A stretch of DNA of 22,614 bases. Source: a virus. The stretch spans positions 1 to 22,614 of IMG/VR virus record IMGVR_UViG_3300042502_000831; one strand, written 5' to 3'. Position numbers and translations under genes: made by a program. The notes beneath the pieces are model-generated. The model was not told the DNA's origin, did no database searches, and was given only the letters and a program-made list of their open reading frames with translations. Of this stretch, positions 2,803-16,883 are shown piece after piece. Position 1 is the stretch's first letter. Each line of letters begins with the position of its first letter.

Positions 2803-3297
2803 ATGACTAAAACAAAAGCGTATGTAGATTTTATACTAACTTTGATGCGTTCAGGAGATGTAGATAGAAGCGTCATTGTTTCTAAGTTTTGCAAAAAGTT
2901 TCAAACAACGGAAAGAACTGCCGACACTTATTTGAAAGATGCAAGAGAAGCCTATATAGTTGAACTAGAGGCGATAAATAATAAAAGGATTGAAGAATAC
3001 CAATCGAACGAAATTGAAGCCTTTAAAACGCAAATACGGAGCAAAACAGAAAGATTGATCTCATATCAAGTACAGATTGAACACATTGAAAAGGAATTGA
3101 TGACTGGCAAGACAAAAGAGCTAATTAGCTTTAAGGATGGAAAGGCTCAAATGGTCGATAGAGACTTGACTGTGTTTGAAAAAAATTCACTTAGAAAGAC
3201 GCTCAAAGAATTGCAAGCCGAAATATCAAAGATCGAGGGCGACTATGCACCGAAACAATTTGAAATGATTGAAGGCATAAACATAATAATTGAATAG
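2803..3297 (+). CDS. terS: Probable terminase small subunit
   Basis: A 164-residue protein immediately before, and one base overlapping, the large terminase gene. Residues 1-50 look like a DNA-binding helical head (FILTLMRSGDVDRSVIVSKFCKKFQTTERTADTYLKDAREAY, with an HTH-like turn around QTTERTADTYL). Residues 50-105 form a charged helix or coiled coil suited to ring oligomerisation. The tail (LRKTLKELQAEISKIEGDYAPKQFE) resembles the end of many small terminases, where an ELxxxLG-like helix precedes the large-subunit contact. The inferred role is to recognise phage DNA and regulate the TerL motor. The call rests mainly on position and architecture. Confidence 0.72.
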   Translation: MTKTKAYVDFILTLMRSGDVDRSVIVSKFCKKFQTTERTADTYLKDAREAYIVELEAINNKRIEEYQSNEIEAFKTQIRSKTERLISYQVQIEHIEKELMTGKTKELISFKDGKAQMVDRDLTVFEKNSLRKTLKELQAEISKIEGDYAPKQFEMIEGINIIIE

Positions 3298-4700
3298 TGC
3301 AAGCTGCTAGAACGCTAAAAAATAAGATACTGCCCTGCTATAAGCACCTATTTGAAGAAAATGATATTCAAATAGAGTTTTTATGGGGTACAAGGGATTC
3401 TGGAAAGACAAAGGCTGGCAGTCAATTAGGCTTATATGATTACACTAAAATAGGCATAGATTTTAAATGCATACTAATTCGTAAGGTCAAAGACACCATA
3501 AAAGATTCAATCTACTCGAATATTTTGGATATAATTCAGGAATGGAGGTTAGAAAATTACTTTGATACTTCAAAAAGTCCTATGGAAGTTCGATCAAAAT
3601 TGGATAATGGAATGTTTATATGCAGAGGACTTGACGAACCTGCAAAGCTCAAATCGTTAATGAATCCGACAATGGCAATTATTGAGGAAGGTGATCAAAT
3701 AACAAGCGATGACCTTACAATGATATTGACCACGCTAAGGCACAATAGTATCAAAACAAAAGTTGTATTTATGTTTAATCCGGAAATGCCAAAAGGAGTG
3801 AACAAAAAAGAGGATTGGTGGCTATGGAAGGATTGGTTTAGTCATACTTCGGATAAATCATTTACAAATACAAAATTGATTGACTATGTAGATAATGGAA
3901 TAACTAAACAGCTATCTATTAAGTACAGAGCAACTCACACCACATTTGAAGACAATCCATATTGTCCGCCAGAGCGAAAAGCTCACTACCATAACCTAAA
4001 ATTCACTAATCCTGCCAAATATTTACCTTACGCAAAAGGTGAATGGGGCATAAGAGAAGTAAAAAGTCCTGCATTCCCTACATTTGATGTCAATAAGCAC
4101 GTTTCAAAGACAGAGGCAGTTCCAAATGTACCGTTATTGTTTTGGGTTGACTTCAACAACGATCCTTTGGCTTGCACTGTCTGGCAAATTTACCGAGATA
4201 ATGAAGGTCATAAGATCAGAGGTTTGCGTGAAATAAAAATCAAACCAAAAGATGGCATTCACAATACTCAATTATTGATTGACTTTATAAAATTGCATTA
4301 CCAAAATCACGTTCATTCATTATGCATAACAGCTGATGCAACTGGATCGCAAAAGACCGCAGCAGGATTATCAAACTTGCTACAATTAAACAAAGCCTTC
4401 AATCTAAATAGACGACTTCAAACTCCAACTGTCAATCCAAAAGTAAAAGATAGCGTTGAGCTTTGCAATTATCTATTCTATCACCATCCAAATATTGTGA
4501 TTGATCCATCAATGGAAACTTTGATATTTGAATTACAAAATACCGAAAAGGATGCCGATGGAGGTTTGGTAAAAGATAAGCGAGACGATGCAACTCAAAG
4601 AGCTGACTTTGTTGATACGCTTCGTTATGGATTTAACTATCATTTCTTTTTAAACGATAACGTCTATAAATATCCGACAAAATTTAGCATAAAAGCCTAA
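3297..4700 (+). CDS. terL: Terminase large subunit (packaging ATPase and nuclease)
   Basis: A 467-residue phage terminase large subunit. The N-terminal ATPase has a Walker A at residues 31-38 (GTRDSGKT), a Walker B ending in acidic residues at about 126-131 (MAIIEE) and the coupling motif FNP at 160-162. The conserved TFEDNP follows at about 216-221. The C-terminal RNase H-like nuclease shows its metal-binding aspartates in order: D285 (FWVDFNNDP), D347 (ITADATG) and an Asp near 437-440 (ADFVDTLRYGF). The enzyme translocates DNA into the prohead through the portal and cuts the concatemer. The start is GTG at 3297, sharing a base with the upstream TAG; no ATG lies close downstream. Length and motifs are complete. 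Confidence 0.96.
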   Translation: MQAARTLKNKILPCYKHLFEENDIQIEFLWGTRDSGKTKAGSQLGLYDYTKIGIDFKCILIRKVKDTIKDSIYSNILDIIQEWRLENYFDTSKSPMEVRSKLDNGMFICRGLDEPAKLKSLMNPTMAIIEEGDQITSDDLTMILTTLRHNSIKTKVVFMFNPEMPKGVNKKEDWWLWKDWFSHTSDKSFTNTKLIDYVDNGITKQLSIKYRATHTTFEDNPYCPPERKAHYHNLKFTNPAKYLPYAKGEWGIREVKSPAFPTFDVNKHVSKTEAVPNVPLLFWVDFNNDPLACTVWQIYRDNEGHKIRGLREIKIKPKDGIHNTQLLIDFIKLHYQNHVHSLCITADATGSQKTAAGLSNLLQLNKAFNLNRRLQTPTVNPKVKDSVELCNYLFYHHPNIVIDPSMETLIFELQNTEKDADGGLVKDKRDDATQRADFVDTLRYGFNYHFFLNDNVYKYPTKFSIKA

Positions 4701-4719: not shown

Positions 4720-5259
4720 ATGGAAAAAGAAATATGGAAAGACATCAAAGGTTACGAATCTTTATATCAAATATCTAATTTTGGGAGGGTAAAAAGTTTA
4801 ACTAGAAAAAGAAACGAAAATACAAATGCAGTTATAAAAGAAAGAATTTTAACTCCAGATTTAGGTAAAGCAGGTTACAATTCAATTTGTTTTAAAATTA
4901 AAAATAAAAAAGAAAAATACTTAATACATAGATTAGTAGCTATTCACTTTATAGATAACCCTGATAATAAACCTCAAGTAAATCATATTAATGGAATTAA
5001 AAACGATAATAGACTAGAAAACTTAGAATGGGTTACAATTTCAGAAAACAGGAAGCACGCTTATAATACAGGTTTGCAATTTGGGCCGATAGGAGAAAAG
5101 CAAGGCAACAGTAAGTTGACAGAATCTCAAATTTTAGAAATTAAAGAAAGACTAAATAGAAAAGAAAAACAAGCGAATATTGCTATGATATACAATGTAA
5201 GACAATCAAATATATCTAAAATAAAAAACAATAAAAGATGGAATCATTTAAATAATTAA
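4720..5259 (+). CDS. NUMOD4/HNH homing endonuclease
   Basis: A 179-residue free-standing homing endonuclease. Residues about 4-28 are the NUMOD4 DNA-contact motif (IWKDIKGYESLYQISNFG, then RVKSL). Residues about 68-112 are the HNH_3 nuclease (H70; VNHINGIKNDNRLENLEW with N88, H89 and N101; N110). Residues about 128-175 form a helix-turn-helix DNA-binding tail (SKLTESQILEIKERL, then IAMIYNVRQSNISKIKNN). Such enzymes nick or cut intron-less or intron-containing alleles and spread their own gene. It sits directly after the intact terL, so it is an intergenic insertion rather than part of an intron. Its codons are more A-rich than those of terL, consistent with separate acquisition. Confidence 0.93.
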   Translation: MEKEIWKDIKGYESLYQISNFGRVKSLTRKRNENTNAVIKERILTPDLGKAGYNSICFKIKNKKEKYLIHRLVAIHFIDNPDNKPQVNHINGIKNDNRLENLEWVTISENRKHAYNTGLQFGPIGEKQGNSKLTESQILEIKERLNRKEKQANIAMIYNVRQSNISKIKNNKRWNHLNN

Positions 5260-5599: not shown

Positions 5600-5940
5600 T
5601 GACCTGCGAACCAATCATAGAGCTATCAATTTGCGACAAAAATGTCAAGATAGCTGAGAATGTAAACGATTTGAGGCTAATCGTCTATAAAGGAAGCCAA
5701 AGACAATGTGATTTTGATTTGCCTAGCATTGATGGCATTATATCATTAACCGACACCGAAATTCTAGAATTTGCAACTACTGCCCATACGTTTAAGTTTC
5801 AATTGAGAGATCCACAAACTAACGAGATGGTAGATTTTGAATATATAGACTGCAATGGTTTTGAAATGCTTGCAAATGTAGTTAGAGTTCGATTTGTCGA
5901 ATGTGGTGAACAAAACGATGTGATGTATGAAGTTTGCTAG
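5599..5940 (+). CDS. Hypothetical protein, possibly a small tail component
   Basis: Function not recognised. The 113-residue acidic protein looks beta-rich (IIELSICDKNVKIAENVNDL, LRLIVYKGSQRQCDFDLP, TAHTFKFQLRDPQ, VVRVRFVECG) and would suit a compact sandwich domain. It contains six cysteines, including MTC at the start and a C-terminal EVC. Its place directly before the tail assembly chaperones is where many siphophages put the tail tube or terminator gene, but it is short for a tube protein. It shares one base with the upstream stop and overlaps the next gene by 14 bases, so the two are probably translationally coupled. Confidence 0.72.
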   Translation: MTCEPIIELSICDKNVKIAENVNDLRLIVYKGSQRQCDFDLPSIDGIISLTDTEILEFATTAHTFKFQLRDPQTNEMVDFEYIDCNGFEMLANVVRVRFVECGEQNDVMYEVC

Positions 5941-6550
5941 TATAAAAGAAAAACTATTTCCTAAAAAAGTAAAAGCAAACGGAAAAAATGTACCGATGCG
6001 ATATGCTTTCACTGGATTAAGTGGTCATAGATACTATCATTATATTGACGTTGCTAACGATATGAACCCAGCGCGGTACATTGAATACTATTTGCCGATG
6101 GTCAAAGAGTATTTTTTAGGCATAAAACAAACCGAACTAAATACTTTTTGGCATAAGTGCAAAGAATATAAAACCTTAAAGCAATATGAAACAGCTCATC
6201 TAGTAATGGAAGAGCGATCAAGGTTAAATCTAGACACTGGAATTATTTACGATATAATGAGCGTGCTTTATTTGCGAGAGGATGAAAAGAATGAGTTTGT
6301 AGATCAATTATTCTTGCAAGAAAAGTCAAAAGATATTAAGCTGACAATGAGGGCAAGTGGAGGGGTCGATAGCAGTTTTTTTTTATGTCAAGAGTTCAGG
6401 AACTTTTTAAAGTCGGCGAATCTATCGGACGTAGATTGGAACTCATATACACGAATAGCGGAAAAGAACTTGGAAATATTGAATCAGACGCTGGATTTAA
6501 TCCACAACTCAGAGCAATTCAAGAATACAATGAGTACACAGAAAAAATAA
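5927..6550 (+). CDS. Tail assembly chaperone, short form (G-like)
   Basis: A 207-residue protein that, with the overlapping frame at 6385, occupies the place directly upstream of the tape measure where long-tailed phages encode their tail assembly chaperones (lambda G and GT). The N-terminus is basic (SIKEKLFPKKVKANGKNV), followed by RYAFTGLSGHRYYHYIDVAN and a helical domain (60-145). At codons 150-153 it crosses nine consecutive Ts (6376-6384), which create a U UUU UUA slippery heptamer. Reading straight on gives the 207-residue form; a -1 slip would switch after residue 153 into the next frame. The role is inferred from position and the frameshift layout, not from recognised homology. Confidence 0.72.
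   Translation: MKFASIKEKLFPKKVKANGKNVPMRYAFTGLSGHRYYHYIDVANDMNPARYIEYYLPMVKEYFLGIKQTELNTFWHKCKEYKTLKQYETAHLVMEERSRLNLDTGIIYDIMSVLYLREDEKNEFVDQLFLQEKSKDIKLTMRASGGVDSSFFLCQEFRNFLKSANLSDVDWNSYTRIAEKNLEILNQTLDLIHNSEQFKNTMSTQKK
6376..6407 (+). other. Probable -1 programmed ribosomal frameshift site
   Basis: A run of nine Ts at 6376-6384 is followed by A6385. In the upstream frame this reads AGT TTT TTT TTA, so bases 6379-6385 form the heptamer T TTT TTA, the same slippery sequence used by HIV-1. A -1 slip continues with ATG TCA AGA, exactly the frame of the downstream ORF. Four bases later a possible 7 bp hairpin (6390-6396 with 6401-6407, loop CAGG, one G-U pair) could stimulate slipping. A GGAGGGG stretch at 6359-6365 lies 13 bases upstream, similar in place to the internal Shine-Dalgarno of dnaX. 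Predicted fusion: 153 + 96 = 249 residues. RNA polymerase slippage on T9 is an alternative route. Confidence 0.65.
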
Positions 6551-6675
6551 AAGATCAATTAGTTTATGTTTGCCAAAACGTAGACGACTATAATAGAGTT
6601 TGGAATGGAACGATGAGAGATTATTATTTTGCTTTGACTAAATTTATTCAAGGCATACCAAAAGAAAAAAAGTAA
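6385..6675 (+). CDS. Tail assembly chaperone extension (T-like frame)
   Basis: A 96-codon frame, -1 relative to the upstream gene and overlapping it by 166 bases. It is best read as the T-like extension of a frameshift fusion (249 residues in total), with the ATG at 6385 being partly formed by the slippery A; independent initiation there is also possible. The product is helical, with EYNEYTEKIKDQLVYVCQNV and a C-terminal WNGTMRDYYFALTKFIQGI segment. In lambda the T part recruits the tape measure and tail tube during assembly, and the tape measure gene does follow here after a 56-base gap. No sequence homology to lambda T is claimed. Confidence 0.68.
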   Translation: MSRVQELFKVGESIGRRLELIYTNSGKELGNIESDAGFNPQLRAIQEYNEYTEKIKDQLVYVCQNVDDYNRVWNGTMRDYYFALTKFIQGIPKEKK

Positions 6676-11643: not shown

Positions 11644-13031
11644 GTATAACATTAGGTAATTACACGATTGAAACAAAAAAGACCGTTGGAGAGCTTCCAA
11701 TAGGCTCTGATAACATTATAGCAACGCCACCGTGTGAAGGTAGCATTGACCCTGCTTTGGTGCAACCTAAATGGAAAAAAATACACCAATACAATTATAC
11801 TGACTCACTTACATTTGGAATTACAACACCTTTTGGAGATGATGATGTTTATGCCGATGGATTTGATTACAAAGTAGTTTTTGATGACGTTGTAATAACA
11901 GGATCGCCAACGCTTACGACTTTTGATTTTTCATATGGCGCGCCAATTAGCTATCCAATTGTCAAAGGCGATGAAGTTATAATGAATGAACAAAATTGCG
12001 GTGGAAGTTATGGTAATACAGGTCGATTTTTTACAATAAATAATCCATCTGGAACTCCGTTTCAAGTTTCAATAGATGTTTCAATTTACCAATTAGTTCC
12101 TGCAACTATTGAGATTGATGTTTGTGGTGGTGGTAAAACAATAAACAGAGCTGAATTATTTGGAACTTATGAAGTTGTTTGGCTTCCATTGGAAATAGGT
12201 AGTGAGTTTTTAGTTCCTTATACAATTTATTATAGAGATCAAACATATATCCCTGATCCATCTATAATGCCAACGTCTTGTAATGACTATCGTATTTATT
12301 TTGATGCTATAATTGCTTCAAGTGCAAATACATTGACCGCTGGCAAATCGTTTTTTATTGATTCAATGGCAAATGAAACTCAAATAAGCGTTTCAAATCC
12401 ATTGGGAGTCCCTTTGGATATTATATTTTTTGATGGAACGAATTATTTGTTTGCTCAAAGTGATCCGACAGGCTTTGTAGATTGGACTGGCTTAAATATT
12501 CCTTTGCCAACTACTATTTTGAATTTGCAAGTTTGGATCGGAGCTACTCAACAAATATTATATGGATCGTCTACTATTAAGTTCAGATATGATGTATTAA
12601 ATTCAGATTGCCCGTGCGAGTGCGCTGACGAATGTGGTGGCATAAATGTAATATTCAATCAAAGCTGTGGAACGTCTTATGGATTGAGATTTAATTTATC
12701 AATTCAAGATGGAAAATACAATATTGATGGCGATTCGTTTACGCAAGGCGGTCAAATAGTGAGACCAATAACAAAGACTAAGGCTACTTATGATTTTGTA
12801 ATAAGCGAGTATTCAGATGAAACATTCGAGCTATTGATGAATCTAATTGCAGACAACCTAAATATTGACGTAGTGGATGACATTGACCCTTTAAATCCAA
12901 ATACTAGATACTATATTGACACCGATTCGTTAAATCCAAGTTGGAACTTCAATTCAAAATTAGGAAGCGTAATTATTCCAGTAATTAAAGAAACATCAAT
13001 ATCTACTAAACGAAAAAATTGTTGTAATTAA
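11640..13031 (+). CDS. Putative minor tail/tip protein
   Basis: A 463-residue protein translationally coupled (ATGA) to the large tail gene. It is almost all beta by appearance, with Thr, Ile, Asp and Tyr-rich strands, and may be a multi-domain structural or receptor-contact protein of the tail tip. A cysteine-dense segment (DCPCECADECGG, residues about 322-333) suggests metal binding or disulfides, and the C-terminus is RKNCCN. No enzymatic motif is seen and no family is recognised. The C-terminal domain around DGKYNIDGDSFTQGGQIVRP is distinct in character. The next gene is separated by 68 bases carrying a promoter, so this gene closes the tail transcription segment. Confidence 0.68.
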   Translation: MSITLGNYTIETKKTVGELPIGSDNIIATPPCEGSIDPALVQPKWKKIHQYNYTDSLTFGITTPFGDDDVYADGFDYKVVFDDVVITGSPTLTTFDFSYGAPISYPIVKGDEVIMNEQNCGGSYGNTGRFFTINNPSGTPFQVSIDVSIYQLVPATIEIDVCGGGKTINRAELFGTYEVVWLPLEIGSEFLVPYTIYYRDQTYIPDPSIMPTSCNDYRIYFDAIIASSANTLTAGKSFFIDSMANETQISVSNPLGVPLDIIFFDGTNYLFAQSDPTGFVDWTGLNIPLPTTILNLQVWIGATQQILYGSSTIKFRYDVLNSDCPCECADECGGINVIFNQSCGTSYGLRFNLSIQDGKYNIDGDSFTQGGQIVRPITKTKATYDFVISEYSDETFELLMNLIADNLNIDVVDDIDPLNPNTRYYIDTDSLNPSWNFNSKLGSVIIPVIKETSISTKRKNCCN

Positions 13032-13050
13032 AAAAAAACAATTACTTTTG
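13022..13050 (+). promoter_or_regulatory. Bacteroidota-type promoter for the 13100 gene
   Basis: TTG at 13022-13024, an 18-base spacer and TACTTTTG at 13043-13050 (followed by CA) match the Bacteroidota -33/-7 pattern well. Transcription would begin near 13055, leaving an A-rich leader of about 45 bases that starts close to TAGCGAAG and ends in a run of As before the ATG at 13100. Confidence 0.68.
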
Positions 13051-13099
13051 CATTGACATAGCGAAGATGTTAGATTTTTAAACTTAAAAAAAAAAATAT

Positions 13100-16520: not shown

Positions 16521-16883
16521 ATGGAATTAGCTAAATTTTTAATCCTTAGAAGTCCAAATGCTTCAAATATAGGAGTGATAAAACAAAAAATAAGCGGAAG
16601 TATTCACCCTGATCAATACGAAATAAGCGAAAAGGAATTAGACGAATTCAAAGCTATGTCCGATTCTCACAAAAAAGCATTTATTGAAGACAAATTGATC
16701 GAAAAGGATGCAAAAGCATTGGAAGCACAACCAGAAAAAAAAAATGTGGAAGTTGCGGAAGTAATAAACGAATCAGATAGCATTGAACCAATTGAAATAG
16801 AGGAATTGAATGAGCCTATCAATGAAGCATCTGAAGTAATTGAAGAGCCAAAAGCAAAAGGCAGACCAAAAAAAGAAAAATAA
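16521..16883 (+). CDS. Acidic hypothetical protein with basic AT-hook-like tail
   Basis: A 120-residue protein of unknown function, first gene after a strong promoter and 9 bases before the scaffold gene. Residues 1-60 include a possible folded part (ELAKFLILRSPNASNIGVIK, then YEISEKELDEFKAM). Residues 70-110 are a very acidic, probably disordered stretch (many Glu and Ile), and the end is basic (KAKGRPKKEK), with a GRP core like an AT-hook. The context suggests a head assembly accessory, for example a scaffold partner or capsid internal protein. Proteins of this type often follow the MuF gene in Bacteroidota phages, but no function can be assigned. Confidence 0.7.
   Translation: MELAKFLILRSPNASNIGVIKQKISGSIHPDQYEISEKELDEFKAMSDSHKKAFIEDKLIEKDAKALEAQPEKKNVEVAEVINESDSIEPIEIEELNEPINEASEVIEEPKAKGRPKKEK

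Follow-up and report, generated by a model that had tools for sequence, protein, structure and literature searches.

A conserved slip site and an upstream Shine-Dalgarno-like element in a probable −1 frameshifted tail-assembly chaperone gene of phages

The window analysed here is a whole virus record of the IMG/VR type (IMGVR_UViG_3300042502_000831, 22,614 nt). It contains two overlapping reading frames, here called G and T, which in our judgement very probably constitute a tail-assembly chaperone gene expressed by −1 programmed ribosomal frameshifting. The slip site, its phase, the dual coding of the overlap and an element upstream of the site are conserved in the loci compared, and from these sequences we infer the slip, its rate, the pairing with ribosomal RNA and the chaperone role. 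The features are collected in Table 1.

Table 1 Features of the gene pair and its surroundings in the window.
Feature	Position	Strand	Evidence
G-like tail-assembly chaperone frame (frame 0, putative), 207 aa	5927..6550	+	ORF; close relatives 80-99% identical; distant G-like family (190-228 aa) at the equivalent position
T-like frame (−1), open from 6373, ATG 6385, 96 aa from the ATG	6373..6675	+	ORF; close relatives 84-100% identical; matches profile of distant T-like family (E 6.5e-5)
Slip site TTTTTTTTTA, in-phase T TTT TTT (6376-6382) and T TTT TTA (6379-6385)	6376..6385	+	Exact in 17/17 close relatives; in-phase heptamer in 119/119 loci
GGAGGGG, Shine-Dalgarno-like element, probable 5' stimulator	6359..6365	+	Conserved GGAGG/GGGGG; predicted anti-Shine-Dalgarno pairing
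Dual-coding overlap, both frames read	6385..6550	+	Low variation over all codon positions; third-position (−1) variation resumes after 6550
Tape measure gene, next downstream, 822 aa	6732..9200	+	N-terminal similarity to Porphyromonas and Alistipes phage tape measures

The downstream ORF (6385-6675) is in −1 phase relative to the upstream ORF (5927-6550) and overlaps it by 166 bases. Nine Ts at 6376-6384 are followed by A6385. An in-frame TAG (6370-6372) lies 15 bases ahead of the ATG and closes the −1 frame upstream; from 6373 that frame is open. A slip at T TTT TTA would join 153 residues to 96, giving 249. An earlier note on this DNA had described the T9 run, the in-phase T TTT TTA, the −1 phase, the 166-base overlap and a 249-residue fusion beside a 207-residue product, with frame 0 remaining open past the site; all of these hold, frame 0 being open as far as its stop at 6550. 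By itself the T9 run is unremarkable, with seven matches on the two strands of this AT-rich contig against about 10 in shuffled sequences. The run alone is therefore within chance, and it is its conservation, phase and position that go beyond it.

In the mechanism proposed here, most ribosomes would read 5927-6550 and produce the 207-residue G-like protein. With the Phe (or Phe and Leu) codons of T TTT TTT or T TTT TTA in the P and A sites, both tRNAs would re-pair one base back, and a fraction of ribosomes would go on in the −1 frame to make the 249-residue G-T fusion. As in dnaX, base pairing between the 3' end of 16S rRNA and the GGAGGGG sequence, 12 nt ahead of the T run, is the probable stimulus for the slip. 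If the lambda proteins are a guide, binding of the tape measure would fall to the G part and recruitment of the major tail protein to the T part. A point against frameshifting is that in E. coli U UUU UUU and U UUU UUA are far less shift-prone than A AAA AAG, although the review in question leaves room for low rates (PMC5009743).

The earlier note had proposed an alignment of relatives, and in this alignment the T run and the −1 phase are kept while the bases before the run vary. The close relatives are 17 further IMG/VR contigs carrying the G/T pair with 80–100% protein identity. All of them have exactly nine Ts followed by ATGTC, and the bases just 5' of the run differ. Errors are common in homopolymers and the window is a single metagenomic contig, so that a wrong T count, from sequencing or assembly, might have split a single gene; the earlier note had named a different count on resequencing as evidence that would undo its reading. 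We regard such an error as extremely improbable, given that both frames evolve under constraint through the overlap, and that the identical T9 in 17 independent contigs rules out a miscounted homopolymer.

The close relatives also indicate how the overlap is read. Of the third codon positions of frame 0, 100 of 147 vary upstream of the overlap and 10 of 56 inside it, and after the frame-0 stop the variation lies on −1 third positions (22 of 37). In the stretch around 6472-6494, many substitutions are synonymous in frame 0 but alter the −1 protein; at 6525-6540 the pattern is reversed, with residues changing in frame 0 and not in −1. Selection therefore seems to act on both products, with each of them under the stronger constraint in its own part of the overlap.

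Three other observations concern this group of contigs. The terminase (window 3297-4700, compared with L004-L016) is only about 40% identical in most close relatives, against more than 80% for the chaperone, so that terminase genes have been swapped within the group. An HNH-type endonuclease gene (4720-5259) separates the terminase from the tail genes in the window, and a similar gene is present in Polaribacter phage P12002L. Runs of A9, A11 and A10 at 13030-13096 and 16735-16744 of the window are near gene boundaries or in a lysine-rich gene.

More distant relatives were reached using two anchors. The first, the C-terminal part of the tape measure, gave 47 distant loci; weak matches to the T profile recur directly upstream of their tape measures, and about 20 of the 47 have a G-like ORF followed by an overlapping −1 ORF of about 100 residues before the tape measure. 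The second was a scan with the distant G-like family, of which the best 80 of 187 relatives were kept. Anchoring on the tape measure and then on the chaperone yielded about 96 distant contigs with this gene pair, and the comparison set comprises 119 loci, four contigs being represented twice. The T frame of the window matches the distant T profile (Table 1), whereas the match of its G frame to the distant G profile has an E value of only 0.06; the families are colinear in alignment. Both Phe residues of the slip site are among the six that are invariant in an alignment of 23 sequences. A degenerate DNA scan of the slip region was discarded, its matches being mostly chance.

Every one of the 119 loci has an in-phase heptamer: T7 in 60, T8 in 27, T9 in 19 and T TTT TTC in 13. 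The last of these has only six Ts, yet both tRNAs can still re-pair in the −1 frame. This distribution bears on transcriptional slippage, in which RNA polymerase would add a U at the T9 run and ordinary translation would then give the identical fusion. Runs of nine A or T are known to slip in bacteria (PMC5009743), and the window has such a run. Nevertheless, the long run is not what is kept, with T7 in so many loci and T TTT TTC in others; what is conserved is exactly the seven bases that the ribosome would use. T TTT TTC retains the ribosomal heptamer and breaks the homopolymer, and so favours ribosomal −1 frameshifting over polymerase slippage, as does the conserved Shine-Dalgarno-like element, which works on ribosomes and not on RNA polymerase. 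As the explanation for the family, transcriptional slippage is thus very unlikely, but the T9 of the window's own clade might add some of it, giving the same fusion.

The same loci bear on whether G and T are simply two genes, with T initiated at ATG6385, either independently or coupled to translation of G, and with no fusion made. The ATG that immediately follows the run, in the window as in each of the 17 close relatives, is a point for this and against frameshifting, and the start of G itself has a poor upstream context. The context of ATG6385 is also poor: it lies at the 59th percentile of random ATGs and is worse than those of 23 of the 27 genes. GGAGGGG is 19 nt from this ATG, beyond the usual spacing for initiation, and the starts in this phage do without such signals. 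The distant relatives also speak against it: the equivalent −1 frame there has no Met before codon 24 and hence no ATG near the junction, so that a slip is needed. Two separate genes would also leave the conserved heptamer unexplained, and we give this explanation little credence, though in the window's own clade T might have some initiation of its own at ATG6385. Ribosomal frameshifting accordingly survives everything that the earlier note had named as able to overturn it: the run and its phase are kept in the relatives, about 96 distant relatives have no ATG near the junction that would mark T as a clearly separate gene with its own start, and the T count is identical in independent contigs.

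Codon-position difference rates from 45 sequences agree with dual coding. They are 0.21/0.08/0.49 where only G is read, 0.26/0.23/0.38 in the overlap and 0.22/0.39/0.29 where only T is read. The rates shift frame and flatten across the overlap in the way that dual coding predicts, and therefore indicate that both frames code. In the two codons that open the heptamer no synonymous change occurs at all; the upstream element and most of the overlap show a reduced amount of it.

The upstream element is the second conserved part of the site. GGAGG or GGGGG ends 9–12 nt before the T run in 117 of the 119 loci, which strongly backs the suggestion in the earlier note that GGAGGGG could act as a stimulator. 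The exceptions, L175 and L199, are the most divergent loci; they keep a T9 slip site and an overlap of 48-51 codons and have no GGAGG (L175:4138-4937, L199:2938-3713), and so offer a natural comparison for the role of the element. Predicted pairing with the anti-Shine-Dalgarno sequence has a median of −11.4 kcal/mol at the element against −3.1 kcal/mol elsewhere in the same genes, and 0.4% of background windows reach this strength. The codon register of the element differs between loci (GGA GGG; AAG GAG G), and with it the residues encoded; protein coding alone is therefore insufficient to explain why the element is kept.

In contrast to the upstream element, the hairpin at 6390-6407 that had been suggested as a further stimulator did not hold up. 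This 18-nt structure has a predicted stability of −2.1 kcal/mol with a z score of −0.68 and is too weak to be supported. No general conserved 3' structure is supported in the window or across the relatives, and the lack of support for one in the window counts against frameshifting. A stem of the form GGGTAT...ATGCCC occurs in part of the distant clade, but is broken in other members and has no two-sided changes.

The label of tail chaperone for G and T rests on position, size and architecture. The pair lies directly upstream of the tape measure in every locus checked, in the window and in the distant relatives, and in this respect the label given in the earlier note stands; similarity to known chaperones, in sequence or in fold, was not found. 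Neither G nor T has a match in Pfam or PHROG. Fold comparison gave no significant match, the models being of low confidence. The established chaperones of this type are highly divergent among themselves. The absence of a known chaperone family or fold, together with the weak match of the window G to the distant G family, is a point against our reading. A search of isolate phages for G and T found nothing credible, and contigs of prokaryote genomes contained no relative. Both G profiles were also run against 396 genomes from the phylum of one Bacteroidetes MAG and gave no match, while the positive control, made up of virus records with a known match, was recovered.

Two further leads were rejected: a DNA match to a Polaribacter phage is short and lies at the start of a 67-residue gene, not in a tape measure, and among terminase relatives in Bacteroidetes MAGs the locus read lacks a neighbouring tail module. 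Six loci (L158, L173, L179, L180, L185 and L189) have a single ORF of about 210–220 residues before the tape measure and no convincing −1 partner, and possibly make the chaperone without frameshifting.

The lambda G/GT frameshift is established, and is widely conserved despite low sequence similarity (PMC5009743). The window resembles gpG/gpGT in its overlapping −1 frames directly before the tape measure, its in-phase slippery heptamer, and a predicted short product accompanied by a longer fusion. It differs in that frame 0 continues for 51–59 codons and a 5' Shine-Dalgarno-like element is present, and neither in sequence nor in fold do G and T show a detectable resemblance to the lambda proteins. 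The lambda heptamer is G GGA AAG, unlike the T-rich site of the window; two contigs with related tape measures have this heptamer in phase a few bases before the frame-0 stop (L193:3735-3774, L196:2569-2608). Another parallel is gpE/gpE+E' of P2, where the heptamer, T TTT TTG, is likewise T-rich and the overlap is also fairly long. Its proteins are different ones, and P2 is not known to have a Shine-Dalgarno-like element.

Candidate −1 pairs are also found before the tape measures of two isolate or prophage genomes, Flavobacterium phage 11b (L281:13856-14529, in-phase A AAA AAA) and Porphyromonas phage005b (L116:4894-5672, in-phase T TTT TTG). They have shorter overlaps than the window and no GGAGG, and are annotated as separate hypothetical proteins. 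With lambda G/GT established and these candidates at hand, the window locus belongs to an already known type.

For the element, a close precedent is the −1 frameshift of E. coli dnaX, in which a 5' Shine-Dalgarno-like sequence lies upstream of an XXXYYYZ heptamer (PMC3711429). The spacing there is about 10 nt, within the range seen in the window family. The heptamer of dnaX is, however, A AAA AAG and has a hairpin on its 3' side, and the dnaX shift ends at once in termination, where that of the window family would lead to a long fusion.

The window and its relatives are probably phages of Bacteroidota, to judge from their sequences. At about −14 to −9 from its gene starts the window is rich in A, a context similar to the one that Flavobacterium johnsoniae is reported to have (PMC6847099). 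The Bacteroidota −7 promoter motif TAHHTTTG occurs 56 times in the window against 27 expected, a twofold excess, which is absent in the distant clade. The window's tape measure is similar to tape measures of Porphyromonas and Alistipes phages (Table 1), and the terminase of the distant clade is nearest to that of Flavobacterium phage 11b and next to that of a Bacteroides phage. A search of one MAG with a 16S 3'-end pattern gave no match and is uninformative.

If this is right, the element is in an unusual setting. Ribosomes of Bacteroidia are reported to sequester their anti-Shine-Dalgarno sequence (PMC9976891), and a Shine-Dalgarno signal of this kind precedes gene starts in none of 19 window genes, none of 47 genes of close relatives and 5 of 87 genes of distant relatives, about the random rate. 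A conserved element in Bacteroidota-like phages therefore poses a testable question. It is possible, if somewhat short of probable, that it acts on elongating ribosomes whose anti-Shine-Dalgarno sequence is hidden at initiation, the rRNA-mRNA pairing being used for −1 recoding and not for gene starts in phages that probably infect Bacteroidota. A phage-encoded bS21 might alter access to the anti-Shine-Dalgarno sequence; none was found in the contigs of 12 relatives, which are possibly fragments. Most Bacteroidia retain a Shine-Dalgarno-like element at the +1 site of prfB, and the authors of that work propose that a pause frees the anti-Shine-Dalgarno sequence (PMC8710568). Common to the two cases is a recoding site with such an element, in a group whose anti-Shine-Dalgarno sequence is reported to be hidden, but the prfB shift is +1, occurs at a stop codon with very short spacing, and is in a cellular gene. 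By analogy, pause-dependent release could also apply at the phage slip site.

The locus defines a widespread and hitherto unclassified family, probably of tail chaperones, whose frameshift cassette is conserved. Its natural variants (T7, T8, T9 and T6C, with and without the 5' element) lend themselves directly to tests of −1 slipping. Most deserving of a test is the conserved Shine-Dalgarno-like element in probable Bacteroidota phages. If its proposed action is true, this element would be the equivalent, in phages and for a −1 shift, of the Bacteroidia prfB case. Should the hosts be Bacteroidota, it asks directly whether ribosomes reported to hide their anti-Shine-Dalgarno sequence (PMC9976891) may expose it during elongation, the question raised by the work on prfB (PMC8710568).
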